A stretch of DNA of 33,666 nt from positions 1 to 33,666 of the forward strand of contig JAICXX010000048.1 in NCBI GenBank assembly GCA_025934485.1. Reading direction: 5' to 3'. The stretch is from Chitinophagaceae bacterium. GTDB taxonomy: Bacteria > Bacteroidota > Bacteroidia > Chitinophagales > Chitinophagaceae. The notes under the pieces were generated by a model. The model was not told where the DNA came from. It was given only the letters and a program-made list of their open reading frames with translations, and ran no database searches. The position numbers and the translations under genes are program-made. Shown piece by piece: positions 3,240 through 29,677 of this stretch (its first letter is position 1; each line of letters starts with the position of its first letter).

Positions 3240-3322
3240 AAAAAGGCGGTAGCCTTTTTGTCCGAAGGACAGACATTAGCCGTTTGGGGGAAATGCGCTA
3301 TTTTTCTTGAAGCGCATTTTCG
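3240..3322 (+). repeat. Structured intergenic repeat, copy A
   Basis: Three stem-loops in a row. Hairpin 1: AAAAAGGC (3240-3247) pairs with GCCTTTTT (3252-3259). Hairpin 2 is the conserved core GTCC-GAA-GGAC (3260-3270), followed by AGACATTAGCC (3271-3281) and GTTTGGGGG. Hairpin 3: AAATGCGC (3291-3298) pairs with GCGCATTT (3312-3319), with a further G-T and G-C pair possible. The core and the following TTTGSGG recur at 10520 and on the minus strand at 29677; a CACATTT tail is also shared with the 10520 copy. It lies between two minus-strand genes and ends just before the permease stop codon. Confidence 0.7.
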
Positions 3323-3328
3323 GCACAT

Positions 3329-4435
3329 TTACTCCCATTTAAAAACCTTGACGGCCACAGCATAGGTCGCGATGCCCCAGATCGCGAGGATGCCCAGCTG
3401 CTTCCAGCAATCGGTGAGATGGACTCCTTCGAAGGCCACATTCCGCAAAGCGTCGTTGAGCTGTTTGAGCGGTAGTATCTCGCAGAACCTTTGCAGCCAT
3501 TTGGGGAACACGTCCGTCGGGAAAAAGGTGCCGGCCAGCAGGAACTGCGGCAGGGTGAACAGGTTCGCGAACGGCGGGATGGTGCTCTCGCTTTTGGCCA
3601 CGCTGCTGATGATAAATCCAAAACCCATGAAAACGATAAGCCCGAAAAGACTCAACACCACCAATTCTAAAAAGGTCACCCAGCCATGGACCAGCGTGAA
3701 ATGGAACCCGACCTTACCGATGACGATGATGACCACGGCGGTGATCAGTTGAAATACCACGCGTGCGATACCCTCCCCGAGGACGATATACGGTTTGCCG
3801 ATCGGCGTGGCATAATAGCGTTTCAGCACCAGCTGCTGCCGCAGGCTGAAGAACAAAAAGGCGACTCCGAACACTGCTGCGCTCAGCAATGAAAAGCCCA
3901 GCATGCCCGGCAGGATGAAATCGATCTCCGAATAGATGCGGCCGGGGATCTGCGGCAACTGCATGATCACGATAGGCCGGTATTGCATCGGCATGCCGCG
4001 CTCCACGAATTGTTCGAGCACCTGTGCCATTGCCGCCTGCAGGATACGGTATTTATCGGCACTGGCCGAAGAGGTCTGGGTCCGCACGGTGAACTGCCAG
4101 AAATTCGCAGGAGACTTCAACGAATCGACCCAAACAGTCGCGGCGATCCGGCCCCGCTCCAGGTCGTGATGGACGGCAGCCGTATCGTGGTCGTCGGACA
4201 GCTTCACCAGCGGGCTCGCGAGGAGCGCCTTGATCACCGAGGACGACGAATCGGCCGGGTTGGCCAGCGCGATCGAAACACTGGGCACACCGCCCCCGAT
4301 AAATCCAAACACTAAAATAAACACAAGCGGAAAACCGAAACTAAAAGCAACAGCACTCGGGTTTCGCAGGATCGCCATGAAACTTGCCTTGGCGATCGCC
4401 AGCATGGCCCTTAGCTGGGAGTAATTCTTATTCAT
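3329..4435 (-). CDS. ABC-2 type transporter permease, no ATPase partner nearby
   Basis: A 368-aa integral membrane protein. The start at ATG 4435 (MNKNYSQLRAMLAIAKAS) is preferred over an upstream in-frame extension that would run through an inverted repeat. Topology is of the ABC-2 export type: a first membrane segment at ~26-46 (AVAFSFGFPLVFILVFGFI), a large external loop to ~residue 170, then about five C-terminal segments including VFGVAFLFFSLRQQLVLKRY (cytoplasmic loop KRYYATPIGKP) and VIIVIGKVGF. The family exports drugs, lipids or polymers together with a separate nucleotide-binding subunit. No such ATPase lies beside it here, so the partner must be encoded elsewhere. Substrate unknown. 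Confidence 0.85.
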   Translation of the reverse strand: MNKNYSQLRAMLAIAKASFMAILRNPSAVAFSFGFPLVFILVFGFIGGGVPSVSIALANPADSSSSVIKALLASPLVKLSDDHDTAAVHHDLERGRIAATVWVDSLKSPANFWQFTVRTQTSSASADKYRILQAAMAQVLEQFVERGMPMQYRPIVIMQLPQIPGRIYSEIDFILPGMLGFSLLSAAVFGVAFLFFSLRQQLVLKRYYATPIGKPYIVLGEGIARVVFQLITAVVIIVIGKVGFHFTLVHGWVTFLELVVLSLFGLIVFMGFGFIISSVAKSESTIPPFANLFTLPQFLLAGTFFPTDVFPKWLQRFCEILPLKQLNDALRNVAFEGVHLTDCWKQLGILAIWGIATYAVAVKVFKWE

Positions 4436-4442
4436 AATAATA

Positions 4443-4488
4443 TTGTGCACCGACGTGCTCAACCGAAAAATAGCCCGCCGGTGCACAA
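4443..4488. promoter_or_regulatory. 10-bp inverted repeat upstream of the ABC-2 permease (possible operator)
   Basis: TTGTGCACCG (4443-4452) and CGGTGCACAA (4479-4488) are exact reverse complements, 26 bp apart, so their centres are 36 bp apart. Each arm also contains the palindrome GTGCAC. The left arm starts 8 bp upstream of the permease start codon. The spacing is too long for a tight terminator hairpin and is not followed by a T run, so paired protein-binding sites or a 5'-leader structure are more likely. Confidence 0.45.
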
Positions 4489-4500
4489 CCGCTTATGATG

Positions 4501-4530
4501 GGCCTTCGGCCGGTGGACCCGTGGTCCACC
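4501..4530 (-). terminator. Two short GC hairpins directly after sppA
   Basis: GGTGGACC (4512-4519) pairs perfectly with GGTCCACC (4523-4530) around a 3-nt loop and abuts the sppA stop codon. A second small hairpin, GGCC-TTC-GGCC (4501-4511), follows on the minus strand. There is no T run, so this may protect the mRNA end or attenuate read-through to the permease rather than act as a strong intrinsic terminator. Confidence 0.45.
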
Positions 4531-6288
4531 CTATTCTATAGTAAGATCGAACGGAAGACGCGTCTCCGAAACGCCGATCATGCTCTTCACTTTTTTCAGG
4601 GTAACCCAGGTACGATAACCGTCTTCGCCGATCTCTTCCTTCACCGCGGCCTTCATCCCCGTGCCTCGCTTGTAGGTCCCCAATAGCCGGTCGATAAAGC
4701 TCTTCGGCTCCGGATATTCCACCAGCCGGTAATCACTCGTCTTCGCCATCCGTGCCGCACAGTCGATCGCATCCTGCAAGGTGCCGATCCGGTCCACCAG
4801 GCCGAGCGAAACCCCCAGGGTGCCACTCCATACCCGCCCCTGCGCGATGCTGTCTACATAGGCGAGATCTTTTTTTCGCCCATCGGCCACCCGCGTCTTG
4901 AAATCGGTATAGATGGCATCGATCGATGCCTGGATAAACGTCCTTTCCATGGGCGATAGCGGCCGGATATTGGACAATATATCTGCTTCAGGCGCCGTCT
5001 TCACGCCGTCGAAGGTCACCCCCAATTTATTTTTAAAGAACCCTTGCAGGTTAGGTATCAACGTGAACACCCCGATAGAACCGGTAATCGTTCCCGGCAT
5101 GGCAAAGATAGAATCTGCGTTGCAAGAAAGATAATAAGCGCCCGAAGCGGCTACATCCCCGAATGAAACGATCACGGGTTTCTCCTTGCGGGCAAGCGTT
5201 ACCTCGCGCCAGATATTCTCGCTCGCCAGGGAGCTGCCGCCACCAGAATTGACGCGGAGCACGATCGCCTTGACATCCTTGTCGAACCGGGCTTTCCGGA
5301 TCAGCCAGCGATACGTGTCGGAACCGATCTCCTCCCGCGCACCCTTGCCTTCCACTACATCGCCTTCGGCATAGATCAGGCTGATCTTGTCCTTCCCAAC
5401 CGTCTTGTAATTTACCGCCTTGGCATATTTTCCTATCGGAACGAAATTGTTCCAGGAATGCGCAGCGACATGCGTCCGTTGCCGGATTTCGTCTTTGACC
5501 TCGTCGTCATACTTCAATCCGTCCACCAATCCATACTTCAATGCGTCGGAAGGAAAATTGATCAGGTGTTCGTTGACGCATTTGCGCAACACGGTGGTGT
5601 CAAGACCGCGACTGCCCGCCGTTGTATGCAGCACCCGGTCGAACAAACCGTTCAGCAAGGTGGTGAGCTGAAGCCGGTTAGCATCGGACATATGGTCTTC
5701 GCGTAAAGGCTCCGTGGCGCTTTTGAACTTACCCGCATAGAATACCTGCGGATCGATCTCCAGCTTCTGCAATGCCGTTTTGAGATACAGCATTTCGGAT
5801 GCAAATCCCTTCCATTCCAGGTCGCCCTTGGGATTCAAATAGATCTTATCCGCCGCCGTCGCGACATAATAGGCCTTTTGCGTGATCCCCTCGCCATAAG
5901 CGACAATGAACTTCCCGCTCTTTTTAAAGTCGACCAGCGCGTGCCGGAGCTCTTCGTTGGTGGCAAAACCATTGGGATCGTTGTTGCATTTGATATAGAT
6001 ACCTTTGACGGCGGAATCCGTTTTGGCATAGTGTAACAAGCGGATGACGTCATAAAGCCCGGGAACATCGTACTGGTCATCGGAACCCAGATCGGATAAC
6101 GGGTTATCCTGCGCCTGTTCTTTAAAGGTCTGGCTGAGATCCAGTACCAGCACGGCCTTGGCTCCTACTTCCGGCTTGCTTGGAGACAATAGGCCACCCG
6201 CAATGACGACCAGGATGATCACGACGATCACTGTGAAGACCAGCAACGCCAGCAGCGCCGCAAAAAATGATTTAAAAAAGCCCCTCAT
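4531..6288 (-). CDS. sppA: Signal peptide peptidase SppA, long (67-kDa) type
   Basis: A 585-aa membrane-anchored serine protease that degrades cleaved signal peptides and other membrane-associated peptides. An N-terminal transmembrane anchor (~8-32, FFAALLALLVFTVIVVIILV) is followed by two tandem S49 domains, as in the double-length form. The catalytic lysine is in the N-terminal repeat (K189 in YAGKFKSATEP). The nucleophile serine is in the C-terminal repeat (S382 in GDVAASGAYYLS; the usual motif is ASGGYY, here ASGAYY). TGSIGV follows as in the family. The gene diverges from folK, sharing an 88-bp gap with small hairpins. It is the first gene of a minus-strand series. Confidence 0.95.
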   Translation of the reverse strand: MRGFFKSFFAALLALLVFTVIVVIILVVIAGGLLSPSKPEVGAKAVLVLDLSQTFKEQAQDNPLSDLGSDDQYDVPGLYDVIRLLHYAKTDSAVKGIYIKCNNDPNGFATNEELRHALVDFKKSGKFIVAYGEGITQKAYYVATAADKIYLNPKGDLEWKGFASEMLYLKTALQKLEIDPQVFYAGKFKSATEPLREDHMSDANRLQLTTLLNGLFDRVLHTTAGSRGLDTTVLRKCVNEHLINFPSDALKYGLVDGLKYDDEVKDEIRQRTHVAAHSWNNFVPIGKYAKAVNYKTVGKDKISLIYAEGDVVEGKGAREEIGSDTYRWLIRKARFDKDVKAIVLRVNSGGGSSLASENIWREVTLARKEKPVIVSFGDVAASGAYYLSCNADSIFAMPGTITGSIGVFTLIPNLQGFFKNKLGVTFDGVKTAPEADILSNIRPLSPMERTFIQASIDAIYTDFKTRVADGRKKDLAYVDSIAQGRVWSGTLGVSLGLVDRIGTLQDAIDCAARMAKTSDYRLVEYPEPKSFIDRLLGTYKRGTGMKAAVKEEIGEDGYRTWVTLKKVKSMIGVSETRLPFDLTIE

Positions 6289-6376
6289 GTGTGGATGTTA
6301 TTTAGTGCGAACCGAAGTTCGCCTTTGACCGAAGGCCAAAAATAAAGATATTTGGGCCCCCGAAAGTAACGAATCT

Positions 6377-6856
6377 ATGAATAGCTCCTATTTATTGATA
6401 GGTGGCAACGAAGGAGACCGGCAGGCAGCGCTGGCCGAAGCCCGCACCCGTCTCGAGACCGCCGCCGGTACCATCCGGCAGGCGTCGCCCCTGTATGAGA
6501 CCGCCCCCTGGGGCAGAACCGACCAGCCCTGGTTCCTGAACCAGGCCCTGCTCCTGGAGACCTCCGCCGATGCCCCTACCCTGTTGAAAACCCTGCTGCA
6601 CATCGAAGCAAAGATGGGCCGGAAACGGCTGGAAAAATATGGCTCCCGGCGTATCGACATAGATATTCTTTTTTTTAATGATGCGATCGTTCGTCTGCCC
6701 GAGCTCGTCATCCCGCACCCGGAGATCGCCAACCGCCGGTTCGTACTCGAGCCGCTTTGTGACATCGCGCCGGATTATTGTCATCCTGTTCTGCACGTTA
6801 CGGTACGGGAATTGCTACTGGCCTGTACCGACCCGCTGAAAGTAAAAAAATTATGA
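6377..6856 (+). CDS. folK: 2-amino-4-hydroxy-6-hydroxymethyldihydropteridine diphosphokinase (HPPK)
   Basis: This 159-aa enzyme transfers pyrophosphate from ATP to 6-hydroxymethyl-7,8-dihydropterin in folate synthesis. Family marks are the N-terminal SYLLIGGNEGDR, the loop SPLYETAPWGRTDQPWFLNQ (HPPK substrate loop), LLHIEAKMGRKR, and the signature RRIDIDILFF followed by PHPEIANRRFVLEPL. Length is normal. It is first in a compact operon, 4 nt ahead of the deoxynucleoside kinase. Other folate genes are not in the window. Confidence 0.95.
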   Translation: MNSSYLLIGGNEGDRQAALAEARTRLETAAGTIRQASPLYETAPWGRTDQPWFLNQALLLETSADAPTLLKTLLHIEAKMGRKRLEKYGSRRIDIDILFFNDAIVRLPELVIPHPEIANRRFVLEPLCDIAPDYCHPVLHVTVRELLLACTDPLKVKKL

Positions 6857-6860
6857 ACGG

Positions 6861-7493
6861 ATGAACTACCATTTTGTCACCGTAGAAGGGAATATCGGGG
6901 CCGGAAAGACCACACTGGCGCATCTGCTCGCCCGGCATTACAATGCCCGGCTGATCCTCGAGCAGTTCGCCGACAACCCCTTTCTGCCGAAGTTCTATGA
7001 GAACCCCGCGCAATATGCGTTTCCACTCGAGCTGTTCTTTATGGCCGAACGCTACAAACAGCTCAAAGAGCTGGTGCAGATCGACGATCTTTTCCAGACC
7101 ATCACCATCTCGGACTATCTGTTCACCAAATGCCTGCTTTTCGCCCGGGTAAATCTGCCTGAACAGGAATACAAACTCTACCAGAAACTTTTCGAGATCA
7201 TGTCCGCGCAGCTCGTTCAACCGGAACTGCTGATCTATCTGCATGCGCCGGTGTCGAAGCTGCAGGTCAATATCCGCAAACGGAACCGCTCCTACGAACA
7301 GGCCATCCCCGATGAATACCTGCTGAACATCCAGGAGACCTATACACAATATATCCGGCAGCACCATATCCGGACGATCTTCATCGATGTGAGCAACGCC
7401 GATTTCCTCGGCAACAAGGCCCATCTTCAGGTAGTCCTCGACGCGCTGGATAACGACTACGACGAGAAAAACAACTATTTTACGTTACCTTAG
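6861..7493 (+). CDS. Deoxynucleoside kinase family protein
   Basis: This 210-aa protein phosphorylates deoxyribonucleosides to 5'-monophosphates for dNTP salvage. It has the P-loop GNIGAGKT (10-17), the ER motif in MAERYKQL, a DYLFTKCLLF substrate-binding segment, YLHAPVSKLQVNIRKRNRSYEQ (LID arginines) and a C-terminal VLDALDN helix. This is the bacterial dGK/dAK-like branch; which base it prefers cannot be told from sequence alone. It sits between folK and an MFS gene with 4-5 nt gaps, so translation is probably coupled. folK beside a deoxynucleoside kinase is a combination I recall from Bacteroidota, linking folate and nucleotide supply. Confidence 0.9.
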   Translation: MNYHFVTVEGNIGAGKTTLAHLLARHYNARLILEQFADNPFLPKFYENPAQYAFPLELFFMAERYKQLKELVQIDDLFQTITISDYLFTKCLLFARVNLPEQEYKLYQKLFEIMSAQLVQPELLIYLHAPVSKLQVNIRKRNRSYEQAIPDEYLLNIQETYTQYIRQHHIRTIFIDVSNADFLGNKAHLQVVLDALDNDYDEKNNYFTLP

Positions 7494-7498
7494 CACTC

Positions 7499-8743
7499 AT
7501 GGAAAACGAGGAACGACGATTAAGCGCTCTGGACGTTTTACGCATCACCGAATACCGACACTTTATCCTGGCCCGCTTCTTCTACGTCATGGCCCTTCGC
7601 ATGGTCACCACTATCGTCGGCTGGCGCATCTACGAGATCACCCATAATCCCCTCGCCATCGGGCTCATCGGCCTCTCCGAATTCATCCCTGCTTTTTGCC
7701 TGGCGCTACCCGCAGGACATGTCATCGACAAAAGCGATAAACGCTCGATGCTGCTTCGCACCACCGTGTTCTACCTGCTTTGCGTGGGAGGGCTGCTGGC
7801 GCTGTCTTTCGGGCCCATCGCGGGACGTCTTCAAAGCCATTGGCTCCAATGGCTGACCTATAGCATCATCTTCTTCACCGGCGTGATCCGTGCCTTCGCC
7901 GGACCAACCCTCAGCGCCATCATCGCGCAGATCGTGCCCAAAGAAAAGCTGCCCGCCGCCGTCACCCTCAACACCAGCGCCTTTCTCTTCGCCTCCGTAC
8001 TCGGGCATGCCACGGCCGGCTTCCTCATCGCACACACCAGCTATCTGATCTGTTTCAGCGTCGTCGGCGCCTATGTGCTTATCGCCTGGTTGGTGCTCTT
8101 TACCCTCTCACCCAAACAGGTCATGGTCATCCGGGATGTTAAACCCTGGGAAAGTATCAAGGAGGGACTTCGCTTCGTCCTGCATACCCGCGAGGTCCTT
8201 GGTGCACTGGCCCTCGATCTCTTTGCCGTGCTGTTCGGCGGCGCCGTCGCCATGATCCCCGTATACGCCCGGGATATTTTAAAGGTGGGCCCCGTCGGCT
8301 TCGGCTGGCTGAATGCCGCGGACGACATCGGCTCGATCTGCATGCTCACCATCCTCACGCTCTGGCCTCTGCGACGTAAACAAGGCTATATCCTGCTCTA
8401 TGCCGTCTTCGGCTTTGGTGTTTGTATTATTGTCTTCGGGTTGTCCAAACTCTATCTGCTCTCTTATTTCGCGCTCATCTGCGCCGGCATGATGGACGGC
8501 ATCAGCGTCGTCATCCGCGGCACCATCGTACAGGTCAAAACTCCAGACGCGATGCGGGGACGGGTATCGGCGGTGAATTCCATGTTCATCAATTCCAGCA
8601 ACGAACTCGGCTCCTTCGAGAGCGGGGTCATGGCCAAGCTCATGCGCGTCGTACCCTCCGTGGTCTTCGGCGGATGCATGACGATAGCCGTGGTGCTCAC
8701 CACCTGGTTCCGGGCACCCAGTTTACGTAAGATGGAATATTAG
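7499..8743 (+). CDS. MFS transporter, DHA3/enterobactin-exporter-like
   Basis: A 414-aa protein with about 12 transmembrane segments. The N-terminal half carries the MFS loop motif around GHVIDKSDKRSML, and LIGLSEFIPAFCLALPAG is typical of the MFS_3 (EntS-like) branch. A repeat of it appears in the second half: NSMFINSSNELGSFESGVMA, which resembles SVFIGTSNELGEFESG-type motifs of that group. Likely a proton-driven exporter of small molecules; the substrate is unknown. It is the third gene of the folK operon, 5 nt after the kinase, and converges on the cysteine-cluster gene with a 15-bp gap. Confidence 0.88.
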   Translation: MENEERRLSALDVLRITEYRHFILARFFYVMALRMVTTIVGWRIYEITHNPLAIGLIGLSEFIPAFCLALPAGHVIDKSDKRSMLLRTTVFYLLCVGGLLALSFGPIAGRLQSHWLQWLTYSIIFFTGVIRAFAGPTLSAIIAQIVPKEKLPAAVTLNTSAFLFASVLGHATAGFLIAHTSYLICFSVVGAYVLIAWLVLFTLSPKQVMVIRDVKPWESIKEGLRFVLHTREVLGALALDLFAVLFGGAVAMIPVYARDILKVGPVGFGWLNAADDIGSICMLTILTLWPLRRKQGYILLYAVFGFGVCIIVFGLSKLYLLSYFALICAGMMDGISVVIRGTIVQVKTPDAMRGRVSAVNSMFINSSNELGSFESGVMAKLMRVVPSVVFGGCMTIAVVLTTWFRAPSLRKMEY

Positions 8744-8758
8744 GCTCCGTACCGTGGC

Positions 8759-9253
8759 TCAATCCACTGCCGCCATCAGCTTCTCGAGTACAAAATAGAC
8801 GATTGGGCAAAAAGTCGAGTTCTTTTGCGTCAGCGCCGGCCGCTTCACCAGCACATCCTCATCGGTATAGGGAAACCGCTCGCAATCGGAAGGCCGTACG
8901 TCATAGATGCCGCAATAATTGTCCGGCCCCAGAAAAGGGCAGGGCGTCGACCGCGTCACATAATCTCCGTCGTCATCGAGCCGGAGATAGCGTTCGATGA
9001 ACTCGCTTTCCTTTAGCTGCAAATGCCGGGCGATCCGCTTGATGTCCGGCGTCTTGAACCGCGGCGAATAGCTTTTGCAACAGTTGGCGCATTGCAGACA
9101 GTCGATCCGCTTGAAAGCTTCTTCATGAAACTCCGGCAGCTTCTCCAAAATGCGATTCCTTTTAGGAGCCTTGTCGGCCTTTTCGAGCCATCTTTTATAG
9201 AGCTTCTGCCGGTCGCCGCTCTTTTTTTGCCAGTTATTTAACAAATCTGTCAT
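8759..9253 (-). CDS. YkgJ family cysteine-cluster protein
   Basis: A 164-aa protein from ATG 9253 (MTDLLNNWQKKS). A longer frame begins 51 nt upstream but includes the promoter region. The metal-binding cysteines are CLQCANCC (C52, C55, C58, C59), followed by TPCPFLGPDNYCGIYDVRPS with C at the next two sites and a DCERFPY site. This matches the Zn/Fe-S binding CxxCxxCC...C...C...C layout of the family (UPF0153). A metal centre is expected; no biochemical role is established. It is divergent from the sterol desaturase-like gene. Confidence 0.88.
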   Translation of the reverse strand: MTDLLNNWQKKSGDRQKLYKRWLEKADKAPKRNRILEKLPEFHEEAFKRIDCLQCANCCKSYSPRFKTPDIKRIARHLQLKESEFIERYLRLDDDGDYVTRSTPCPFLGPDNYCGIYDVRPSDCERFPYTDEDVLVKRPALTQKNSTFCPIVYFVLEKLMAAVD

Positions 9254-9333
9254 ATATAAGCGTTTGCACGTAATTAACACTTGCACGACAATACGCTGCT
9301 GCAAAGGTGCGTTATTTGCCTTATTTTTAGCCC

Positions 9334-10278: not shown

Positions 10279-10504
10279 TTTCCTTTTAATTATCCAAGCT
10301 CCTTAATTGGTGTTTTAGGCGCTAATTTTGTTCCAGCAATTCATTCCTGCTAACGCACGAATAGTTTAGCATTCAATTTTTAGGGTTTAGGGGTTTTTAA
10401 AGAAAATGGCCAGTCCCAATTTGTCAAAGTGGGGACGGCCATTTTCCATTATGTCCTGGCGGCCGGAGGCCGCCAGGGTGTTCGTCCAGGTTTTTCAAAA
10501 CCCA

Positions 10505-10587
10505 GATGCCGGAGGCATCGTCCGCAGGACAGACGTAAGCCTTTTGCGGTCAATGCGGCACCTTCCCACAAAACCGCATTGACCGCA
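10505..10587 (+). repeat. Structured intergenic repeat, copy B
   Basis: Hairpin 1: GATGCC (10505-10510), loop GGA, GGCATC (10514-10519). Hairpin 2, conserved core: GTCC-GCA-GGAC (10520-10530), then AGACGTAAGCC (10531-10541) and TTTTGCGG. Hairpin 3: TGCGGTCAATGCGG (10545-10558) pairs perfectly over 14 bp with CCGCATTGACCGCA (10574-10587). A CACATTT tail follows, as in copy A. Compared with copy A the hairpin-3 bases differ on both arms yet still pair (GCGC/GCGC versus GCGG/CCGC). Confidence 0.75.
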
Positions 10588-10608
10588 CATTTTCTCCTTC
10601 AAGCGTTG

Positions 10609-10616: not shown

Positions 10617-10654
10617 CGAATCTTTTTCATCTTGGTCAACCTCTTTATCTACTT

Positions 10655-13591
10655 ATGAATCTATTCGAACAACAAGCGAATGAATTTGCGAGCCGTCATA
10701 TCGGCCCCGACGAACGGGAGACTTCCGGCATGCTGAAGACCATCGGTGTTGGCTCCCTCGATGCGTTGATCGACCGGACCATCCCGGCATCCATCCGTTC
10801 CGGCAAACCGCTCAACATCCCCGGTCCGTTCAGCGAACACCAATACCTGACCTCGCTGCGTCAGATCGCATCCCTCAACAAAGTCTTCAAATCTTATATC
10901 GGCCAGGGCTATTACGATCTGATCGTCCCCAGCGTGATCCTGCGCAATGTATTCGAAAACCCGGGTTGGTATACGCAATACACCCCTTACCAGGCCGAGA
11001 TCTCCCAGGGACGCCTGGAAAGCCTGCTGAACTACCAGACCATGGTAGCCGATCTCACGGGCCTTCCCCTCGCCAATGCCTCGCTTCTCGACGAAGGCAG
11101 CGCAGCCGCCGAAGCCATGACCATGTTCTTCAACCTCAAGAACAAAGATCATGATCATATCACGACGCCGAAATTCTTTGTCGACACGCATATCTTCGCC
11201 CAGACCAAAGACCTCCTGCTCACCCGGGCAGAGCCGGTGGGCATCGAGCTGGTCATCGGCGATTTCCGCAAGGTCACGCTGGACAGCAGTTATTTTGGCG
11301 CCATCGTTCAATATCCCGATAGCAACGGCGCCATCTATGACTACCGCGACTTTATCGGCCAGGCACATGCCGCCGGCGCCTATGTGGTGATGGCCACCGA
11401 TCTGCTGGCGCTCACCCTGCTGACGCCTCCCGGTGAACTGGGCGCCGATGTCGCCATCGGCACCGCCCAACGTTTCGGTGTACCCATGGGTTTCGGTGGC
11501 CCGCATGCCGCCTTCTTCACCGCGCGTGACGAATTCAAACGCGCGATCCCCGGCAGGATCATCGGCGTCAGCGTCGACGCCCAGGGCAACCGCGCCCTGC
11601 GGATGGCCCTGCAGACCCGCGAACAGCACATCAAACGCGAGAAGGCCACGTCCAATATCTGTACGGCCCAGGCCCTGCTCGCCAACATGTCCGCTATGTA
11701 TGCCGTTTATCATGGTCCCGAAGGCCTCACCCGCATCGCTAAACGCGTGAGCCTGCTGACCCGCACGCTCGCGGGCGAACTGGAAGAGCTCGGCTATCCC
11801 AATCTCAACGAATACTATTTCGATACGGTCCGCATCAAGGTCAAGGACACCGCCGCACTCCGGCATACCGCGGAAGCGTATGGCATGAATTTCCATTATT
11901 CCGGCGGCACCGTCGGTATCTCGCTCGACGAGACCACGACGCAGGAAGACGTGCTCAATATCCTTAGTGTCTTTGGAGAACTCACCGACAATTCGCTTGT
12001 CTCGGTCACGTTCGACGTCGACGACACCCTGAGCAATATCCCTTCCACCGTCACCCGGACCTCCGAATTCCTCGCACATCCCGTTTTTAATACCTACCAT
12101 TCCGAGACCAAAATGATGCGCTATCTGCGCAGTCTCGAGGTCAAGGACCTTTCGCTCAATACGTCCATGATCTCCCTGGGATCCTGCACGATGAAGCTCA
12201 ATGCCGCGACGGAACTGATCCCCGTGAGCTGGCCCGAGTTCGGCGGTCTCCATCCCTTCGCACCCGCCGACCAATGGAAAGGCTATCGCCGCATCCTCGC
12301 CGAGCTGGAAGAATGGCTCAGCGAGATCACCGGCTTCGCAGCCACTTCGCTCCAACCCAATAGCGGCGCCCAGGGAGAATACGCGGGTTTGCTGACCATC
12401 CGCGCTTATCACAACGCCAACGACGGCGCACACCGTGACGTACTGCTCATCCCCATTAGTGCGCATGGCACCAACCCTGCCAGCGCGATCATGGCAGGAA
12501 TGAAGGTGGTGGTCGTAAAAAGCGATGACGACGGTCATATCGACGTCACCGATCTCAAGGAAAAAGCACTTCAATACAAGGACCGGCTCGCCGGCCTCAT
12601 GGTCACCTACCCTTCTACCCATGGGGTCTTCGAAGAGGCCATCGTGGAGATCTGCCGCATCATCCACGACAACGGCGGTCTCGTCTATATGGATGGCGCC
12701 AACATGAACGCCCAGGTAGGCCTTACCAGCCCCGGGCGCATCGGCGCCGATGTCTGCCACCTGAACCTCCACAAGACCTTCGCCATCCCCCACGGCGGCG
12801 GCGGTCCCGGCATGGGTCCCATTTGCGTCACGGAGAAACTGAAACCCTATCTCCCCGGGCATGTCGTGAATGTAGAGACGGGCCTGCGGATCGTAGGCAA
12901 CACGGAGACGGCATCGGGTTCGGCAGGACATGCCGTTTCGGCCGCTCCCTTTGGGTCTGCCAGCATCCTGCTGATCAGCTACGCCTATATCAAGATGCTA
13001 GGGGCGGAAGGGCTCACTAACGCCACCCGCTATGCGATCCTCAATGCCAACTATATGAGGGCGCGGCTCGAGAAGAAATACAAGATCCTCTATACCGGCG
13101 CCGGTGGCACCTGCGCCCACGAGTTCATCGTCGACCTCCGCCCCTTCAAAGCCAGCGCGGGCATCGAAGCGGAAGATGTCGCCAAACGGCTCATGGACTA
13201 CGGCTTCCACGCACCCACCCTCAGCTTCCCCGTGCCGGGCACGATCATGATCGAACCCACGGAAAGCGAGGACAAGGCTGAGCTCGACCGTTTCTGCGAC
13301 GCGATGCTCAGCATCCATGAGGAGATCACCGCGATCGAAGAAGGCAGGGCGGACAAGACCGATAACGCGCTGAAGAATGCGCCGCATACCCAGCAGGTGA
13401 TCATCGCCGAAGAATGGAAACATGCCTATACCCGTAACCAGGCGGCCTTCCCGCTGCCCTATGTCCGGGAGAACAAATTCTGGCCCAGCGTCGCGCGTGT
13501 CAACAACACCGTGGGCGACCGCAATCTGATCTGCACCTGCGAGCCGGTAAGCTCGTATGCGGATGTGGACCTCACCAGGACCCCGGCATAG
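10655..13591 (+). CDS. gcvP: Glycine dehydrogenase (aminomethyl-transferring), P-protein of the glycine cleavage system
   Basis: This single-chain 978-aa PLP enzyme decarboxylates glycine and passes the aminomethyl group to the lipoyl arm of GcvH. It is the full-length fused form (alpha and beta halves of archaeal/Gram-positive types in one chain). Marks include the N-terminal [47 protein letters not shown], the glycine-rich [15 protein letters not shown], and the Schiff-base lysine K707 in [20 protein letters not shown]. The gcvT and gcvH genes are not adjacent. It is preceded by a stem-loop-rich leader region and followed by a convergent lipoprotein gene. No glycine riboswitch was recognised. 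Confidence 0.97.
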
Positions 13592-13604: not shown

Positions 13605-13605
13605 T

Positions 13606-22312: not shown

Positions 22313-22345
22313 CTACCGGCTCGTCCATTACAATGGCCTATCTTT

Positions 22346-22369
22346 AGTCACTATAGTCAATTAAAGTCA
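22346..22369 (+). promoter_or_regulatory. Three AGTCA direct repeats just upstream of the deoR-family start
   Basis: AGTCA occurs at 22346-22350, 22355-22359 and 22365-22369, spaced 9 and 10 bp (about one helical turn). It ends 7 bp before the regulator's start codon. Possible autoregulatory site; no direct evidence. Confidence 0.35.
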
Positions 22370-22376
22370 ACGCCCA

Positions 22377-24130: not shown

Positions 24131-24230
24131 AAAAATTCCTTTCCGCCAGCGAACCGCCGAAGCCCTGCTTTGTTAGTTTATGTAACAGACGAATTTAGAA
24201 TCAGACGAACATAAGCTAAACAGACAGGCT

Positions 24231-25274
24231 ATGAGACCACTTTTACCCATGGCCATGCTATGCGCATGGTTCTGTGGGAACTTTTTGACCGGATTTGCTC
24301 AATCCCCTTCCAATGCGCACGATGACACGCTCACGCACCTGCTGCGCATCTACGAGGACAATGACTTCATCAACATTTGGGGCGAGGGAACGGACGATGC
24401 CTATACCAATGGTACGCGCATCGATTATTTTTACCAACACCGTAGACGGTCGTATGGAATTGACCGCTGGATGCCTGCAGCAGGCGACAGCGCTGTAGAT
24501 ATCTACGGCTGGGGTGTCATGCAGATCATGTATACACCCGACGACATCACCGACCCCGATTATCAACCCAATGATTATCCCTGGTCGGGGGAGCTCATCG
24601 TCCTGCATTCCCGCTATTCCTACAATCCCGAGAAACGCTATGACCTGCAAACCGAATTGGTGCTGGGAGTGATCGGCCCCGCGGCGACCAACAGGCAAAC
24701 CCAGTCCATGGTTCACCATCTCATCCGGTATGATCAACCCGCGGGCTGGGACCACCAATACCGCAATGACCTGCTGGCCAACGTGAACCTTACCGCCGAA
24801 AAAGAGCTGGTCTCCCTGGGATCCGTGGTAACCGTGATCGGCGGCGCGCAGGTCTACGCAGGAACCATGCAGAACGGCGCGGCGCTCTATCCGCTGATCC
24901 TCATCGGGAAAAAACAGGCCTATTTCAAGGGGTTCCTCAGTCAGTATACGAGTCCGGCACACAAAGGCAAAAAGCCATGGCAGGCTTATCTGTTGGTCCG
25001 GCCCGAGATGCAGTATTTTTTTACCAATGCGGTGCTGCAGGGTGGATCGTTCACCACGAATCCCAATCTGCAGCCTACCAGGCAACCCGATGGTAAACCG
25101 GTCACACCTCAACCCTATCACCCGCTGCAACCCTGGGTAGGCTCCTTTGCCTTCGGCGCCGTCCTCACGCATGGCCGTACCGGCATCTCCTTTACCCAGA
25201 CGGCTACCGCAGCAACGTTAAAAGGACTCTATTGCCACACCGTAGGGAATATCTCCCTGTATTTCGGCTGGTAA
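24231..25274 (+). CDS. LpxR-like outer-membrane lipid A deacylase family protein (DUF2219), paralog 2
   Basis: A 347-aa tandem paralog of the gene at 23129, well over half identical by eye. It shares AYTNGTRIDYFY, MPAAGDS, DIYGWG, MQIMYTP, GGAQVYAGTMQNGAALYPLI and a C-terminal aromatic end (SLYFGW). It has its own signal peptide (MRPLLPMAMLCAWFCGNFLT..AQ). It keeps the N44-D45 pair in YEDNDF plus T59-N60 and H162 (MVHHLIRYDQPAGWDHQ), and so looks catalytically complete. It carries an extra ~15-residue Pro-rich loop (PTRQPDGKPVTPQP) before the last strands. A 100-bp gap from paralog 1 allows its own promoter. Confidence 0.87.
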   Translation: MRPLLPMAMLCAWFCGNFLTGFAQSPSNAHDDTLTHLLRIYEDNDFINIWGEGTDDAYTNGTRIDYFYQHRRRSYGIDRWMPAAGDSAVDIYGWGVMQIMYTPDDITDPDYQPNDYPWSGELIVLHSRYSYNPEKRYDLQTELVLGVIGPAATNRQTQSMVHHLIRYDQPAGWDHQYRNDLLANVNLTAEKELVSLGSVVTVIGGAQVYAGTMQNGAALYPLILIGKKQAYFKGFLSQYTSPAHKGKKPWQAYLLVRPEMQYFFTNAVLQGGSFTTNPNLQPTRQPDGKPVTPQPYHPLQPWVGSFAFGAVLTHGRTGISFTQTATAATLKGLYCHTVGNISLYFGW

Positions 25275-25317
25275 TCCATTAAATAAGAATTATTCGTAAA
25301 CAATAAAACAAAGAAAA

Positions 25318-25935
25318 ATGAAAACGACACGTAAGATCGGCGTAGTAACAGCCCTATTGACAGCTTTATCGCTTGGCACTGTAATGACCTCGAACGCGCA
25401 GGATGCCACACCTGCCAAAGCTTCCTCTTCCAGTTCTTCCAGCGACAACAAGGAGTTTCGGTTAAGCGTAGGTCCGGATTTCGGCCTGCCCGTCAGCGAC
25501 CTCTCGCAAGGTTATAATTGGAGCGCCGGTGGTTTCGTCCAGGCGGATATTCCGGTGATCCAGAACCTGTATGTGACCGTCGATGCCGGCTACCGCGGGA
25601 TCTTTAGCAAGAAAGGCAGCGAACTCTCCGGTTCCAAAGGTGTGGATCTCCAAACGATCCCGTTAAAGGCAGGCCTCAAGTATTTCTTCGTCGACAACCT
25701 CCTTTATGTACAGGGACAAGCCGGCGCCACCATCCTTGCCAACAAAAGCAATGCGCTGGCCGATAAAAGCGCGGGTTTTACCTATTCGCCGCAAGTAGGT
25801 GTGCTGATAAAGCTGGCGCATAAAAATTATCTCGACGCCGGCTTTTACTGGGAATCGACACAAAGCTTCTGGAATAACGGCCCCGGCACCTTGAATATGC
25901 TGGGCCTGCGCCTGGCCTATACCTTAGGCATATAA
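25318..25935 (+). CDS. Small outer-membrane beta-barrel protein
   Basis: A 205-aa protein. It has a signal peptide (MKTTRKIGVVTALLTALSLG..SNAQ) and a serine-rich low-complexity stretch (ASSSSSSSDN), then a barrel-like domain: EFRLSVGPDFGLPVSDLSQG, WSAGGFVQADIPVIQNLYVT, GYRGIFSKKG, LKAGLKYFFVDNLLYVQGQAG, SPQVGVLIKLAHKNYLDAGF and a final GLRLAYTLGI. Alternating hydrophobic strands suggest an eight-stranded barrel of the general Bacteroidota porin/OMP_b-brl type. No substrate or function can be assigned. It is monocistronic, with a strong terminator 25 nt after the stop. Confidence 0.8.
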   Translation: MKTTRKIGVVTALLTALSLGTVMTSNAQDATPAKASSSSSSSDNKEFRLSVGPDFGLPVSDLSQGYNWSAGGFVQADIPVIQNLYVTVDAGYRGIFSKKGSELSGSKGVDLQTIPLKAGLKYFFVDNLLYVQGQAGATILANKSNALADKSAGFTYSPQVGVLIKLAHKNYLDAGFYWESTQSFWNNGPGTLNMLGLRLAYTLGI

Positions 25936-25960
25936 GCTAATGTCCGGGCTGAACACACAC

Positions 25961-25998
25961 GGGCCGCCCCTGCAAAACCGCGGGGCGGCCCTTTTTTT
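25961..25998 (+). terminator. Strong intrinsic terminator after the small barrel gene
   Basis: A perfect 10-bp GC stem, GGGCCGCCCC (25961-25970) with GGGGCGGCCC (25982-25991), has an 11-nt loop and is followed by seven T (25992-25998). A textbook Rho-independent terminator. Confidence 0.92.
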
Positions 25999-26010
25999 GC
26001 GTTGAGACCA

Positions 26011-26048
26011 CCAATGTCTGTCCTTTGGATGAACCGCGTCCCGCGGTT
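26011..26048 (-). repeat. Structured intergenic repeat, copy D (degenerate)
   Basis: On the minus strand: hairpin 1 AACCGCG (26048-26042), loop GGA, CGCGGTT (26038-26032), then C, then the core ATCC-AAA-GGAC followed by AGACATTGG (26030-26011). Compared with copies A to C the first core base is A instead of G and the tail reads TTGG. The GGA loop of hairpin 1 is shared with copy B. The next stem on this strand is the terminator at 25961-25991, about 19 nt on. Confidence 0.5.
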
Positions 26049-26095
26049 TTACAAAGTCTTAATCTAGGTTAATGGCGGGCGGGGGAATTCAACCC

Positions 26096-26103
26096 TACCT
26101 TTG
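26096..26103 (+). promoter_or_regulatory. -7 box of the YceI-family gene
   Basis: TACCTTTG matches TAnnTTTG and lies 54 bp upstream of the ATG at 26158. The -33 region is not a clear match. Confidence 0.5.
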
Positions 26104-26157
26104 TGAAAGAAAAATAATTGTCTTAATTTCATTGTTCAAACATCAAAATTGCATATC

Positions 26158-26691
26158 ATGGCTACGACAAAATGGGTTCTCGATCCCACGCACTCCGAAG
26201 TGGAATTCAAGGTGAAACACATGATGATCTCCAACGTCAGCGGAAAGTTCACCAAATTCGACTCTTCGCTGGAAACCGAAGGAGAAGATTTTATGACCGC
26301 CAAAGTGACCTTTACGGCCGATGTCGACTCGATCTCCACGGGCGCTGAACAACGCGACGGGCACCTCAAGTCTCCCGAATTCTTCGATGCCGCAAAATTC
26401 CCCCAGCTGAAATTTACGGCTACCAAATACGAGAATGTGGATAACGACGGGTCCTACGAAGTATATGGCGACCTCACTATCCATGGCATAACAAAGAATG
26501 TAAAGTTGGATGCCGAGTTCGGCGGAGTCATCAAAGATCCCTGGGGCAATACCCGCGCCGGCATCACCGCCAGCGGCAAGATCAACCGGAAGGAGTTCGG
26601 TCTTACCTGGCACGGTGTCACCGAAACCGGCAGCCTCATCGTCAGCGACGAGGTACGCATCCATGTGGGCCTGGAATTCGTAAAAGCATAA
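26158..26691 (+). CDS. YceI family protein
   Basis: A 177-aa protein from ATG 26158 (MATTKWVLDPTHSEVEFKVK); an upstream TTG in frame is not needed. The YceI fold is a lipocalin-like barrel that binds a polyisoprenoid in known members. Motifs are WVLDPTHSEVEFKVKHMMIS, SGKFTKFDSSLE, GHLKSPEFFDAAKFPQLKFT, GDLTIHGITKNVKLDAEF and GKINRKEFGLTW. There is no signal peptide, so this copy is probably cytoplasmic, unlike periplasmic E. coli YceI. It is monocistronic, with a -7 box upstream and a terminator downstream. Confidence 0.93.
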   Translation: MATTKWVLDPTHSEVEFKVKHMMISNVSGKFTKFDSSLETEGEDFMTAKVTFTADVDSISTGAEQRDGHLKSPEFFDAAKFPQLKFTATKYENVDNDGSYEVYGDLTIHGITKNVKLDAEFGGVIKDPWGNTRAGITASGKINRKEFGLTWHGVTETGSLIVSDEVRIHVGLEFVKA

Positions 26692-26699
26692 TATCTGCA

Positions 26700-26725
26700 A
26701 AGGAGGGGGATTACCCCCCCTCCTT
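26700..26725 (+). terminator. Hairpin after the YceI-family gene
   Basis: AAGGAGGGGG (26700-26709) pairs with CCCCCTCCTT (26716-26725), loop ATTACC. Perfect 10-bp stem, 8 nt after the stop; only a short T tail, so termination may depend on the stable stem. Confidence 0.65.
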
Positions 26726-26727
26726 CG

Positions 26728-26735
26728 TATATTTG
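26728..26735 (+). promoter_or_regulatory. -7 box immediately before the ABC-F gene
   Basis: TATATTTG fits TAnnTTTG exactly. Only four bases separate it from the ATG at 26740. If used, transcription would begin at or within a few bases of the start codon, giving a leaderless mRNA. The -33 region falls in the preceding hairpin and lacks a TTG. Confidence 0.45.
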
Positions 26736-26739
26736 CCGA

Positions 26740-28638
26740 ATGCACTATGTCAGCGTCGAAGGGTTAAGCAAGTCATACGGCGTCAAGCCGCTTTTCAACA
26801 ATATCACATTCCACATCGAAGAAGGCGACAAGGTCGCCCTCGTCGCCCGCAACGGGAGCGGCAAATCCACTCTCCTCCGTATCCTGTCCGGACGCGATAC
26901 TACCGATAAGGGTACCGTATGGATCCACAAAGACGTCACCGTGGCCCTGTTCGAGCAGGAACCGGTATTCATGGAGCACCGTTCGATCCTGGACAATATC
27001 TTCCATCACGATCATCCCATGATCAATGCCATTAAGGCCTATGAGGCAGCCAGCGACAGTGGCGACGTCGATGTTCTGACAGAAGCCATCGTAAAGGTAG
27101 ACGAACTCAACGCCTGGGATTTCGACACCAAGGTCAAACAGATCCTCGGAAAGCTGAATATCCATCAGCTCGACCAACCCGCCGGCACCCTCTCCGGCGG
27201 TCAGCGGAAACGCGTTGCGCTGGCCCGCACCCTCATCGACATCGGATTCGAACACAAACATGTTCTCCTGATCATGGACGAACCTACCAACCATCTCGAC
27301 GTGGAAATGGTCGAATGGCTGGAACATTACCTGAACCATGAAAAAGTCACGCTCCTGCTCGTGACCCACGATCGCTATTTTCTCGACAACGTCACCGAAG
27401 AGATCTGGGAGATGGACGGCAGCACTCTGTACGTCTACAAAGGCGACTACGAGAACTATCTCGAGAAAAAAGCCGCCCGACTGGAGAACGAAACCGCCTC
27501 CATCGAAAAGGCCCGGAATACTTACCGGAAAGAGCTGGAATGGATGCGCAAGCAGCCCAAGGCCCGGACGACAAAGAGCAAGAGCCGGCAGGACAATTTC
27601 TATGTCGTGGAGACGCGCGCCAAACAAAAGATAGAAGACCAGCAGATCGAATTGCAGATGAAGATGAACCGCCTCGGCGGAAAGGTCGTCGAGCTCAAAA
27701 AGGTCTACAAAAGTTTTGACGACAGGGTGATCCTCAAAGGCTTCGATTATACCTTTAAACGCGGCGAACGCGTTGGCGTCATCGGCCGCAACGGCGTCGG
27801 CAAATCCACTTTCATCAATATCCTGCAGGGGCTCGAACCCGCGGACAGCGGCAAGATCAACATCGGCGAGACCGTGATCTTTGGCAACTATTCGCAGACG
27901 GGGCTCGTGATCAAAGAAGACATGCGCGTCATCGAATTCGTCAAGAACATCGCCGAACATTTCCCCCTCGCGGCGGGCGGCTCGCTGAGCGCGGCCCAGT
28001 TCCTCAATCTCTTTCTGTTCCCACCCGAACAACAGTATACGTATATCTCCAAGCTCTCCGGCGGAGAAAAACGGCGGCTACACCTGCTGTCCATCCTGTT
28101 CCGGAACCCCAATTTCCTCATCCTCGACGAGCCCACCAACGATCTCGACCTCCCTACCCTGGCTATCCTGGAGAATTTCCTGAGCGAATACCAGGGCTGT
28201 TTGCTCATCGTCTCGCACGACCGGTATTTTATGGACCGGCTGGTCGATCATCTGCTGGTACTCGAAGGGCAGGGCCTCGTCCGCGATTTCCCGGGTAACT
28301 ACTCCCAATACCGGGATTTCCAAAAGAACAACGAAGAAGATGCCCCGTTTCCCAACGAGGAGATGGCCGCCAAAACCGCCTCCCCCGCCTCCACGGCGCA
28401 GCAGGCTCAAGTCCCGGCGAAACGGCAACTGACCTATAAAGAAAAAAGAGAATTCGAGACCCTCGAAAAAGAGATCGCGGCTCTTACTACGGAAAAACAA
28501 AGGATCACCGAAAAGCTCAACAGCGGCGCCGCCCCCTTCGATGAGCTGCAACAGCTGTCGATCCGCATCGGGGAGCTGAGCCAATTGCTCGACGACAAGG
28601 AATTGCGCTGGCTCGAGCTCAGCGAAATGGGGAATTGA
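26740..28638 (+). CDS. ABC-F family ATP-binding protein (Uup-like)
   Basis: A 632-aa soluble protein with two ABC domains and no membrane part. Family members act on the ribosome. NBD1 has the A-loop/Walker A VARNGSGKST (35-44; Ala replaces the first Gly), the signature LSGGQRKRVALAR and Walker B LLIMDEPTNHLD. An arginine/lysine-rich linker (RKQPKARTTKSKSRQDNF) follows. NBD2 has a canonical Walker A, GRNGVGKST, a signature LSGGEKRRLHLL and FLILDEPTNDLD. A C-terminal coiled-coil (~565-632, YKEKREFETLEKEIAALTTE) is the Uup type and binds nucleic acid in E. coli. The gene ends 9 bp from a convergent methyltransferase. Confidence 0.93.
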   Translation: MHYVSVEGLSKSYGVKPLFNNITFHIEEGDKVALVARNGSGKSTLLRILSGRDTTDKGTVWIHKDVTVALFEQEPVFMEHRSILDNIFHHDHPMINAIKAYEAASDSGDVDVLTEAIVKVDELNAWDFDTKVKQILGKLNIHQLDQPAGTLSGGQRKRVALARTLIDIGFEHKHVLLIMDEPTNHLDVEMVEWLEHYLNHEKVTLLLVTHDRYFLDNVTEEIWEMDGSTLYVYKGDYENYLEKKAARLENETASIEKARNTYRKELEWMRKQPKARTTKSKSRQDNFYVVETRAKQKIEDQQIELQMKMNRLGGKVVELKKVYKSFDDRVILKGFDYTFKRGERVGVIGRNGVGKSTFINILQGLEPADSGKINIGETVIFGNYSQTGLVIKEDMRVIEFVKNIAEHFPLAAGGSLSAAQFLNLFLFPPEQQYTYISKLSGGEKRRLHLLSILFRNPNFLILDEPTNDLDLPTLAILENFLSEYQGCLLIVSHDRYFMDRLVDHLLVLEGQGLVRDFPGNYSQYRDFQKNNEEDAPFPNEEMAAKTASPASTAQQAQVPAKRQLTYKEKREFETLEKEIAALTTEKQRITEKLNSGAAPFDELQQLSIRIGELSQLLDDKELRWLELSEMGN

Positions 28639-28647
28639 TCGCGCTGC

Positions 28648-29595
28648 CTATTTTACAAGCTTGAAACAATAGCGGAAAAGTTTCCCCTGAAAGTCGAAGG
28701 GCGTGGTAGCGTTGGTGATATCTTTCACCGATGTGGCCGTGAGCTTCTCCGTTTCGAGCTGAAACTTACGATAGTTCGTGCTGAAATACAGGATACCGCC
28801 GGGCTGCATCGCCCGCAGGGTCTTGTTGATGAGCTCCGCATGATCCCGCTGGATGTCCAGAAAATCCTTCATGCGTTTACTGTTGCTAAAGGTCGGCGGG
28901 TCCATGACCACCAGGTCATAGGTATTGGGCGGGACTTCGTCCAGCCATTGTTTGACGTCGGCATGGATGAACCGCTGTTTCGCGGGATCGGCCGCGACGT
29001 TCAGCGCCAGGTTCGCTTCGGCCCAATTCAAATAGGTTTTCGACAAGTCGACCGAATCCACCTGCATGGCGCCACCCGCCGCCGCATAGACAGAAAAGGA
29101 CCCGGTATAGCAGAACAGGTTCAGCATTTTCTTGCCGGCCGCCTCTTCCCGAACCATACCCCGCGTGATGCGGTGATCCAGGAATAACCCGGTATCCAAA
29201 TAATCCGTAAGATTGATCTTAAAAGAAAGCCCCGCCTCCCGCGCGATAAAGAACTCTTCTTCGCTGGACAGCTTCTCATACTGCCCCTGCCGGCCGGCCT
29301 TGCGGCGGCGTTCGCGATAATAGATGCGGTCGTCCGGGGTCTCCAGCAGTTCGCTTATCGTGGGGATACAGCCCTCCAGCCATTGGTCGTGCTCCTCCTC
29401 CGTCATCCCATGACGGCGCTGGTATTCGGCCAGATAAAGTTTGTCCTCATACCGTTCGATACAAAAAGGGAATTCCGGCAGGTCGTGGTCATAGATCCGA
29501 TAACAGGTCACCCCCTGCCGTCGCGCCGTCTTGGCCACATGCCGGTAGACCTTGGCTAGCCGGTTCCGGAACATCTGCAATTTTTCTTCACTCAT
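28648..29595 (-). CDS. Class I SAM-dependent methyltransferase, RlmK-like (C-terminal half of RlmKL)
   Basis: A 315-aa protein. It aligns by eye with the C-terminal half of E. coli RlmKL, which makes m7G2069 in 23S rRNA. Shared marks are the opening NRLAKVYRHVAKTARRQGVT then CYRIYDHDLPEFPFCIERYE, RKAGRQGQYEKL, the loop DYLDTGLFLDHR (131-142), motif I NLFCYTGS (159-166), VDLSKTYLNWAEANL and motif IV DPPTFSNSKRM (232-242). The RlmL half (THUMP domain, m2G2445) is missing, so this is a single-domain enzyme. The substrate in this organism is inferred from similarity; a related RlmI-type role is the alternative. It begins just past repeat copy C. Confidence 0.85.
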   Translation of the reverse strand: MSEEKLQMFRNRLAKVYRHVAKTARRQGVTCYRIYDHDLPEFPFCIERYEDKLYLAEYQRRHGMTEEEHDQWLEGCIPTISELLETPDDRIYYRERRRKAGRQGQYEKLSSEEEFFIAREAGLSFKINLTDYLDTGLFLDHRITRGMVREEAAGKKMLNLFCYTGSFSVYAAAGGAMQVDSVDLSKTYLNWAEANLALNVAADPAKQRFIHADVKQWLDEVPPNTYDLVVMDPPTFSNSKRMKDFLDIQRDHAELINKTLRAMQPGGILYFSTNYRKFQLETEKLTATSVKDITNATTPFDFQGKLFRYCFKLVK

Positions 29596-29607
29596 CGCTT
29601 ATCGTTT

Positions 29608-29677
29608 ATTTGCGGGAGATCCGCCTACCAGAAATTAGCGTATCTCCCGCAAATCGCTAATGTCTGTCCTGCCGGAC
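29608..29677 (-). repeat. Structured intergenic repeat, copy C
   Basis: On the minus strand the conserved core GTCC-GGCA-GGAC (29677-29666) is followed by AGACATTAGCG (29665-29655). Then a perfect 13-bp hairpin, ATTTGCGGGAGAT (29654-29642) with ATCTCCCGCAAAT (29620-29608), 21-nt loop. The core and the first bases of the stem (TTTGCGG) match copies A and B, while the rest of the stem differs. The core also encodes the last six codons (VRQDRH) and stop of the MFS gene. Confidence 0.75.

Follow-up and report, generated by a model that had tools for sequence, protein, structure and literature searches.

Repetitive extragenic palindromes (REPs) have been described as lying mainly downstream of coding regions (PMC3733652). 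Neither the way in which they spread nor the reason why cells retain them is settled. For the REP-associated tyrosine transposases (RAYTs), the role of residue Y115 of the E. coli protein has been addressed (PMC8266576). RAYTs of subclass 2.6, which carry the motifs NH[LIV]H, WQ, YIH[QN]NP and SS, are found mostly in Bacteroidetes and are reported to be flanked by atypical structures without GT[AG]G, copies of which occur elsewhere in the genome (PMC6006769).

We analysed the contig JAICXX010000048.1 (33,666 nt, taken as a whole and called the window) from the 6.75-Mb, 381-contig genome of a Chitinophagaceae bacterium (assembly GCA_025934485.1, our handle G000). An initial annotation of the window, made from its letters, had described a dispersed, structured repeat and proposed a REP/RAYT-type or RNA element. 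The repeat is a folded unit of about 90 bp with covarying stems, which is mobile, restricted to one clade of the genus Puia, biased in its placement towards gene starts and co-distributed with a RAYT-like protein pair. It is thus REP-like in its working: dispersed, folded, non-autonomous, mobile and accompanied by a RAYT-like protein. We consider it likely to be a non-autonomous REP-like mobile element of this clade, close to the "atypical" RAYT type of Bacteroidetes; among the systems described so far, subclass 2.6 and its atypical repeats come nearest. Copy number and compensatory stem changes support the original proposal, whose RNA option is kept by the sense placement close to start codons.

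The Puia system resembles the subclass 2.6/Bertels group 5 TnpA-REP systems in its Bacteroidetes host, in the HLH, WQ, IHxNP and SS motifs of one RAYT-like protein (protein A), in the spacing from the histidine-hydrophobic-histidine (HuH) motif to the Tyr position (86 in protein A by hand count, against a reported median of 82), and in repeats that are dispersed, structured and devoid of GT[AG]G (PMC6006769). Unlike subclass 2.6, the Puia proteins form a tandem pair that is not flanked by repeats, the Tyr position is changed in both and HuH is lost in protein B, and the elements show a bias towards leaders. With the GTAG- or CGTC-tagged REPs, bacterial interspersed mosaic elements (BIMEs) and REP doublets forming hairpins (REPINs), the element shares short, palindromic, dispersed and mostly intergenic copies in high number, sometimes in tandem or doubled (PMC3733652; PMC8266576), but it has three hairpins in a fixed order and a GTC that is paired in a mini-stem. 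Non-autonomous IS200/IS605-type elements also have end hairpins, and no target-site duplication was seen here; however, we identified no full-length parent element and no fixed target motif in the flanks. Structured RNAs in Rfam have covarying stems and a leader position as well, but no family reached its gathering score in the window, and nine element loci searched at E≤1 gave one implausible microRNA family match (30.3 bits against a gathering score of 90).

In the wide sense of high-copy, dispersed and mostly intergenic palindromes, the elements are REPs, and their near-identical copies, sharp ends, unrelated flanks and empty sites are those of mobile miniature elements. Of the components of a REPtron, the genome has a RAYT gene (matching NF047646 below its cut-off); a RAYT flanked by REPs, or one with both HuH and a catalytic Tyr, was not found. 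The unpaired GTAG/GTRG or CGTC at one end that marks tagged REPs is absent. Tagged-family status is not established, and the RAYT-like pair fails two defining features, the tyrosine and the flanking repeats. No title describing this element or a Tyr-less RAYT pair was found in the literature covered, the scope of which excluded preprints and most subscription journals.

A three-hairpin unit with compensatory stem changes

One strand of the unit folds into three serial hairpins. From 5' to 3', it comprises hairpin 1, a GNCC-GAA-GGNC mini-stem, a AGACATTAGC linker, a few nucleotides, the TTTGC hairpin 2, and CAT followed by an A/T run. The initial annotation had described the core and a strong hairpin after it; the full element has three hairpins, and copy C lacks hairpin 1. 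In 69 copies, the variable hairpin 1 has a stem of 5-11 bp and a loop of mostly 3 or 4 nucleotides, CAT plus the A/T run forms a conserved 3' tag, and no fixed tetranucleotide or motif precedes hairpin 1, the left flank being C-rich at -4 and -3 (0.39 and 0.41). Hairpin 2 has a stem of about 15 bp and a loop of TA[A/T]TTTTY or TAnnTTTY. CGTC is present in 36 of 75 copies but is not an unpaired tag, because its GTC pairs inside the mini-stem and is replaced with compensation in other copies. Some copies consist of hairpin 1 and the core only, and in others the cores are doubled at 40-43 bp or repeated in tandem at 91-92 bp. Tandem arrays with a period of 91-92 bp lie near contig ends (loci L012-L014, L040, L046 and L049). 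An enlarged 5' part, in which an extra hairpin and a GC-rich insert precede the usual core, recurs in two forms (L274, L277, L278, L284, L287 and L289; L064, L031, L271 and L281).

The co-variation first noticed between copies A and B is compensatory and holds far beyond these two copies. In an alignment of 34 full copies, in which hairpin 1 loops of 3 and 4 are not mutually aligned, 85.4% of the cells were paired (63.2% in hairpin 1, 97.8% in the mini-stem, 94.0% in hairpin 2) and 21 of the 27 pairs had changed on both sides, with 114 both-side-change cells. The covariation score was 0.361 against at most 0.134 in slid controls, and none of 500 shuffles was as high on any of five measures. 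The mini-stem alone appears as GTCC/GGAC, GGCC/GGCC, GACC/GGTC and GTCG/CGAC in these rows. When eight copies were folded as RNA, no shuffle was as stable for six of them, whereas 3 and 1 of 200 were for copies C and E, respectively.

Counted over the best 83 of 108 aligned rows, G-U cells outnumbered A-C cells in hairpin 2 (50 to 10), whereas hairpin 1 (23 to 29) and the mini-stem (5 to 5) showed no such excess. This indicates the top strand, for hairpin 2 alone, and fits RNA and single-stranded DNA equally. We also considered a pseudoknot between the core and hairpin 2 (ATTAGC/GCTAAT). Although 84.8% of its cells pair, it is unproven: both-side change was seen in one of six pairs, which 177 of 500 shuffles reach, while 19 of 500 shuffles attained its covariation score and a +1 slide surpassed it.

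Dispersal and turnover within one Puia clade

The repeat had been predicted to belong to a genome-wide family, and it does: GGACAGACRTWAGC occurs 43 times without mismatch, and our covariance model R1 matched at least 144 times at E≤1, a lower bound in that 150 candidates were scored and copy E lay outside their list. With up to two mismatches, GGACAGACRTWAGC was found 224 times against 134 for the reversed pattern, so many of the two-mismatch matches are background. The exact-copy count, the covariation and the R1 matches together rule out a chance origin.

R1 matched in 15 of 33 Puia genomes and in none of 25 from other genera (68 candidates scored per genome, under stricter filters). Across the class, where 10 candidates were scored in each genome, one of 395 genomes had a match, namely that of the window. 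A pattern scan of genome contigs returned 65 stretches, 63 of them titled Puia, Chitinophagaceae, Chitinophagales, Sphingobacteriales or Bacteroidetes and not individually assigned to Puia; Amphritea and Hungatella gave single matches that seem to be fortuitous. A GcvP tree was built from 29 of the 33 genus genomes and rooted by us on an element-free one; in it, one branch (support 0.98) separates the 15 element-bearing from 14 element-free genomes, and therefore the element family was gained or lost once.

For placement and turnover, 100 own loci were searched, giving 108 matches, of which 83 were used after matches below 49.8 bits and two in L050 were dropped. Duplicate loci (L005, L013, L014) and weak or variant ones (L048, L055, L060, L062, L065, L068, L070) were left out. 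The foreign copies are high-scoring ones from 63 loci in 13 genomes; L333, which has no recognisable core, was dropped from the comparison of shared placements.

The unit spreads whole and turns over between species. In G017, the five dispersed copies at L074, L088, L317, L319 and L320 are 94-98% identical in all ten pairs and have unrelated flanks; their likeness starts with hairpin 1 and stops just after hairpin 2. No target-site duplication was recognised by eye. Shared placements numbered two among 52 foreign downstream open reading frames compared with the 83 own copies, both with G004, and six more foreign loci have a neighbouring gene in common with own copies at a different gap. An element upstream of gcvP is present in the window's genome only among the 15 element-bearing genomes. 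At one of the six loci with a shared neighbour, L074/L286, the G017 element lies between two genes and our own match inside the first of them. The elements before leuD in G007 and G031 belong to different paralogs.

One placement shared by G000 and G004 precedes a gene that is Gfo/Idh-like by its sequence, an ortholog of which is present in 14 of the 15 element-bearing genomes. Its leader is empty in G029, G031 and G017, where it runs straight from the -7-like box AAATTAGTACATTTA to the ATG, and holds a full sense element in G000 and G004. In G007, an element of opposite direction follows a few bases past the same box (L360:1310-1415, minus strand; 61.8 bits with R1), and in G009 hairpin 1 and the core are visible by eye without an R1 match at E≤0.01; the other seven orthologs gave no R1 match. 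The opposite-direction copy in G007 and the sense copies in G000 and G004 mean that this leader was hit at least twice, and it is possibly an insertion hot spot. G009, G000 and G004 group in the GcvP tree (0.991), which is compatible with one old sense insertion followed by stem change; re-insertion is equally open. Bursts within a species, empty sites and more than one hit on the same leader can all be seen in Puia.

RAYT-like proteins and gene starts

The initial annotation had advised looking for a nearby RAYT gene. None was seen in the window, but a search with PF01797 found several Y1-type proteins in the genus, one weak kind of which is a tandem pair, protein B followed by protein A. The pair matches NF047646 (REP-associated tyrosine transposase) with E 1.5e-16 and 1.7e-14, the scores of 60.6 and 53.9 bits being below the curated cut-off of 80. 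Relatives of protein A at 54-100% identity occur in all 15 element-bearing genomes and in none of the 18 element-free genomes of the genus, where the relatives stay at or below 35% in long matches and two short matches in G026 have 46-50%. Protein B, looked for beside protein A, adjoins it in all 15. In 14 of these genomes the pair has a pcrA/uvrD-type helicase gene as its neighbour; the stretch fetched from G029 did not show the end of the helicase. Protein A carries HLH (15/15), WQ, xIHENP (14/15) and SS. Both proteins are under purifying selection, with dN/dS of 0.04-0.12 in nine of ten pairwise comparisons made over the two proteins and saturated dS in the tenth.

Within the order, 127 of 248 genomes have relatives of protein A. 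The six closest ones fetched from beyond the genus (46-53%) have His (three) or Tyr (two) at the catalytic position or are cut off before it (one). The His is probably older than Puia, because L343, L344 and L346, from another genus of the family, also have it. A PDB sequence search with protein A gave weak matches to the transposases 2ec2 (E 0.006) and 2f4f (E 0.007), which stop before the Tyr region.

For the preferred reading, a REP-like mobile element served by this pair, we envisage that the folded single strand would be recognised by a RAYT-type HuH protein, the A/B pair, related to subclass 2.6 of Bacteroidetes. The element would move as single-stranded DNA and insert into the strand exposed near transcription start sites, and might thereby often become part of an mRNA leader. 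Several observations weigh against this. The catalytic Tyr position of protein A holds His in 12 genomes (His147 in G000 by hand numbering), Ser in two and Glu in one, hence Tyr in none of 15, whereas all six outgroup relatives within the genus keep Tyr. Protein B has no HuH and, within a divergent stretch, Thr or Ser at the Tyr position in all 15. As both lack the aligned Tyr, the pair is at most a candidate for the cutting enzyme; another Y1 protein of the genus, the aro-type discussed below, keeps its Tyr in G017. An element was found in the fetched flank at one of 15 pair loci, and it is degenerate. Since one branch separates the element-bearing genomes, the co-occurrence with protein A counts as one event rather than 15; moreover, completeness reaches 90% in just eight of the 18 genomes without the element, and protein B was looked for beside protein A only. 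As for the repeats, they showed no fixed GTAG or CGTC tag. The structures of subclass 2.6 have been called weaker (PMC6006769) whereas the Puia element has three strong hairpins, and Puia elements mostly lie in sense before start codons, unlike the REPs that have been described mainly downstream of coding regions (PMC3733652).

The 83 own copies comprise 75 intergenic ones, five inside called genes and three without a 3' gene in the locus. Sixty of the 75 lie in sense before a start codon at a median distance of 19 nt, and 15 oppose their 3' gene, which in 11 cases ends within 3 nt of hairpin 2 or inside it. Among the 63 foreign copies, 53 are sense (median 22 nt), eight antisense and two inside genes. 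Random intergenic placement would give 64% sense (p 0.003). A sense position within 34 nt of the start codon was found for 46 of the 75 own copies, a count with three starts that the gene caller put at, or within, the end of hairpin 2, against about 21% expected (p 6e-14). This null rests on the map of 29 genes in one window, and the genes were called by a small codon-usage caller trained on the window, so that single start codons may be off. In 145 copies, TAnnTTTG, which we take to be the Bacteroidetes -7 box, has 12 matches at -24 to -10 before hairpin 1 (5.5 per 1000 positions), compared with 0-4 matches (0-0.9 per 1000) in each other upstream bin; in 143 copies, 11 matches fall within 60 positions after hairpin 2 and none within the 60 that follow. 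The element thus lies near promoters, on either side of them. Its preferred place is in sense, with a promoter or an upstream gene before it and a start codon behind it. The Puia elements sit at gene starts, not gene ends.

This placement also speaks for a cis-acting mRNA leader element, for which selection would act on the RNA (stability, translation or processing), mobility would be just the means of spread, and proteins A and B might bind RNA. We regard this explanation as possible but doubtful. It draws on the sense orientation of 60/75 own and 53/61 foreign copies as classified by their 3' neighbour, on their closeness to start codons, on the box concentrated upstream of hairpin 1, on the G-U excess in hairpin 2, and on the two leaders common to G000 and G004, in which stem letters differ and pairing is kept. 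Re-insertion rather than change in place can, however, explain the differing stems, because one of these two leaders also took an opposite insertion in G007. The lack of a G-U excess in hairpin 1 and the mini-stem, the rarity of shared placements, the strong structure of antisense copies (88.9 bits for copy A) and the copies that lie upstream of a promoter, among them copy B, also speak against it, as do the varied downstream genes. A regulon was rejected since these genes, named from their sequence, look varied.

Rather unlikely, in our view, is a passive family of miniature inverted-repeat transposable elements (MITEs) mobilised not by the A/B pair but by an IS200-like TnpA. This aro-type TnpA is a 139-residue IS200-type protein at L071:1426-1845 (minus strand), whose neighbours are presumably aroB-like and DAHP-synthase-like genes. 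Among 13 relatives in the genus, the catalytic Tyr is kept in eight and replaced by Phe in five. HuH and Tyr are kept in G017, which has the clearest recent burst, and in G031, G012, G029, G032 and G002. However, Phe stands for Tyr in G000, G004, G007, G014 and G023, the protein was not found in the element-bearing G009, G011, G019 (65% complete) and G030, the last having a different IS200-type protein, and it is present in the element-free G015 and G027. As a general mobiliser it was therefore rejected, its distribution across genomes not fitting.

About equally improbable is that the A/B pair derives from a RAYT, has given up cutting with Tyr and now works as a nucleic-acid-binding protein of two subunits, which would recognise the three-hairpin element in the leaders of at least 100 messages and control the fate of these messages, with target sites still spreading; if true, it would be a transposase-derived, genome-wide post-transcriptional system. 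A mobile promoter, with the TAnnTTT loop of hairpin 2 as the -7 box of the gene behind, is very improbable: TAnnTT occurs in 121 of 128 loops with a start codon close behind, but of 123 anchored loops 2% have the final G of the box and 92% have C or T in its place, which disfavours it, and -7 boxes are found on either side of the element, depending on the copy.

Returning to the REP-like mobile element, its bias towards leaders and the lack of Tyr in the pair set it apart. The RAYT-like proteins distributed with it do not seem capable of textbook tyrosine chemistry, yet are under purifying selection. As Puia dinghuensis CGMCC 1.15448 is cultured, the link between the element and the A/B pair is testable.

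In the antisense own copies at L262, L059, L007, L270, L294 and L031, the opposing genes end at a near-identical point, 28-29 nt inside hairpin 2, whose loop may thus supply stop codons. A degenerate element at L072:2581-2686 (plus strand), downstream of the RAYT-like pair, has a hairpin 2 loop that apparently contains the start codon (ATG) of a sigma-factor-like gene.

Copies in the window

A full-model R1 scan of the window found five copies. The four copies of the initial annotation, A, B, C and the degenerate D, are real and were confirmed by direct reading; copy E had been missed.

Table 1. Element copies in the 33,666-nt window. The R1 scores of copies A, B and C are partly by construction, because these copies are among the 34 model-building sequences; D and E are outside that set.
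Feature	Position	Strand	R1 score
Copy A, full element	3240..3343	+	88.9 bits
Copy E, full element	4427..4531	-	49.8 bits
Copy B, full element, upstream of gcvP	10504..10605	+	72.0 bits
Copy D, partial (hairpin 1 + core)	25989..26050	-	25.3 bits, E 1.1e-4
Copy C	29593..29697	-	77.6 bits

Copy A lies between two minus-strand genes, antisense to both. Its mini-hairpin GTCC-GAA-GGAC (3260-3270), preceded by hairpin 1, and AGACATTAGC (3271-3280) were read directly; the arms of hairpin 2 are at 3289-3299 and 3311-3321, and the GCACATTT tag follows. Copy E differs in its letters from the other copies but has the same three stems, with hairpin 1 formed by GGTGGACC/GGTCCACC, then GGCC-GAA-GGCC, the core CATCATAAGC and hairpin 2. 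It lies in sense before an ABC-2 permease gene, about 9 nt from the start codon of that gene (ATG at 4435).

Copy B consists of hairpin 1 (10505-10519), the mini-hairpin (10520-10530), the core AGACGTAAGC (10531-10540) and hairpin 2 (10545-10587), and folds at -37.8 kcal/mol (z -5.2). The -7 box TACCTTTG separates it from the ATG at 10655, which places this copy upstream of a likely promoter. Hairpin 2 is absent from copy D. In copy C, the mini-hairpin GTCC-GGCA-GGAC is followed by AGACATTAGC and by hairpin 2 at 29609-29651, and the place of hairpin 1 is taken by the 3' end of a major facilitator superfamily (MFS) gene (29657-30865), the TAG stop of which is inside the core. Copy C is in sense, about 15 nt upstream of a methyltransferase gene (28648-29595).

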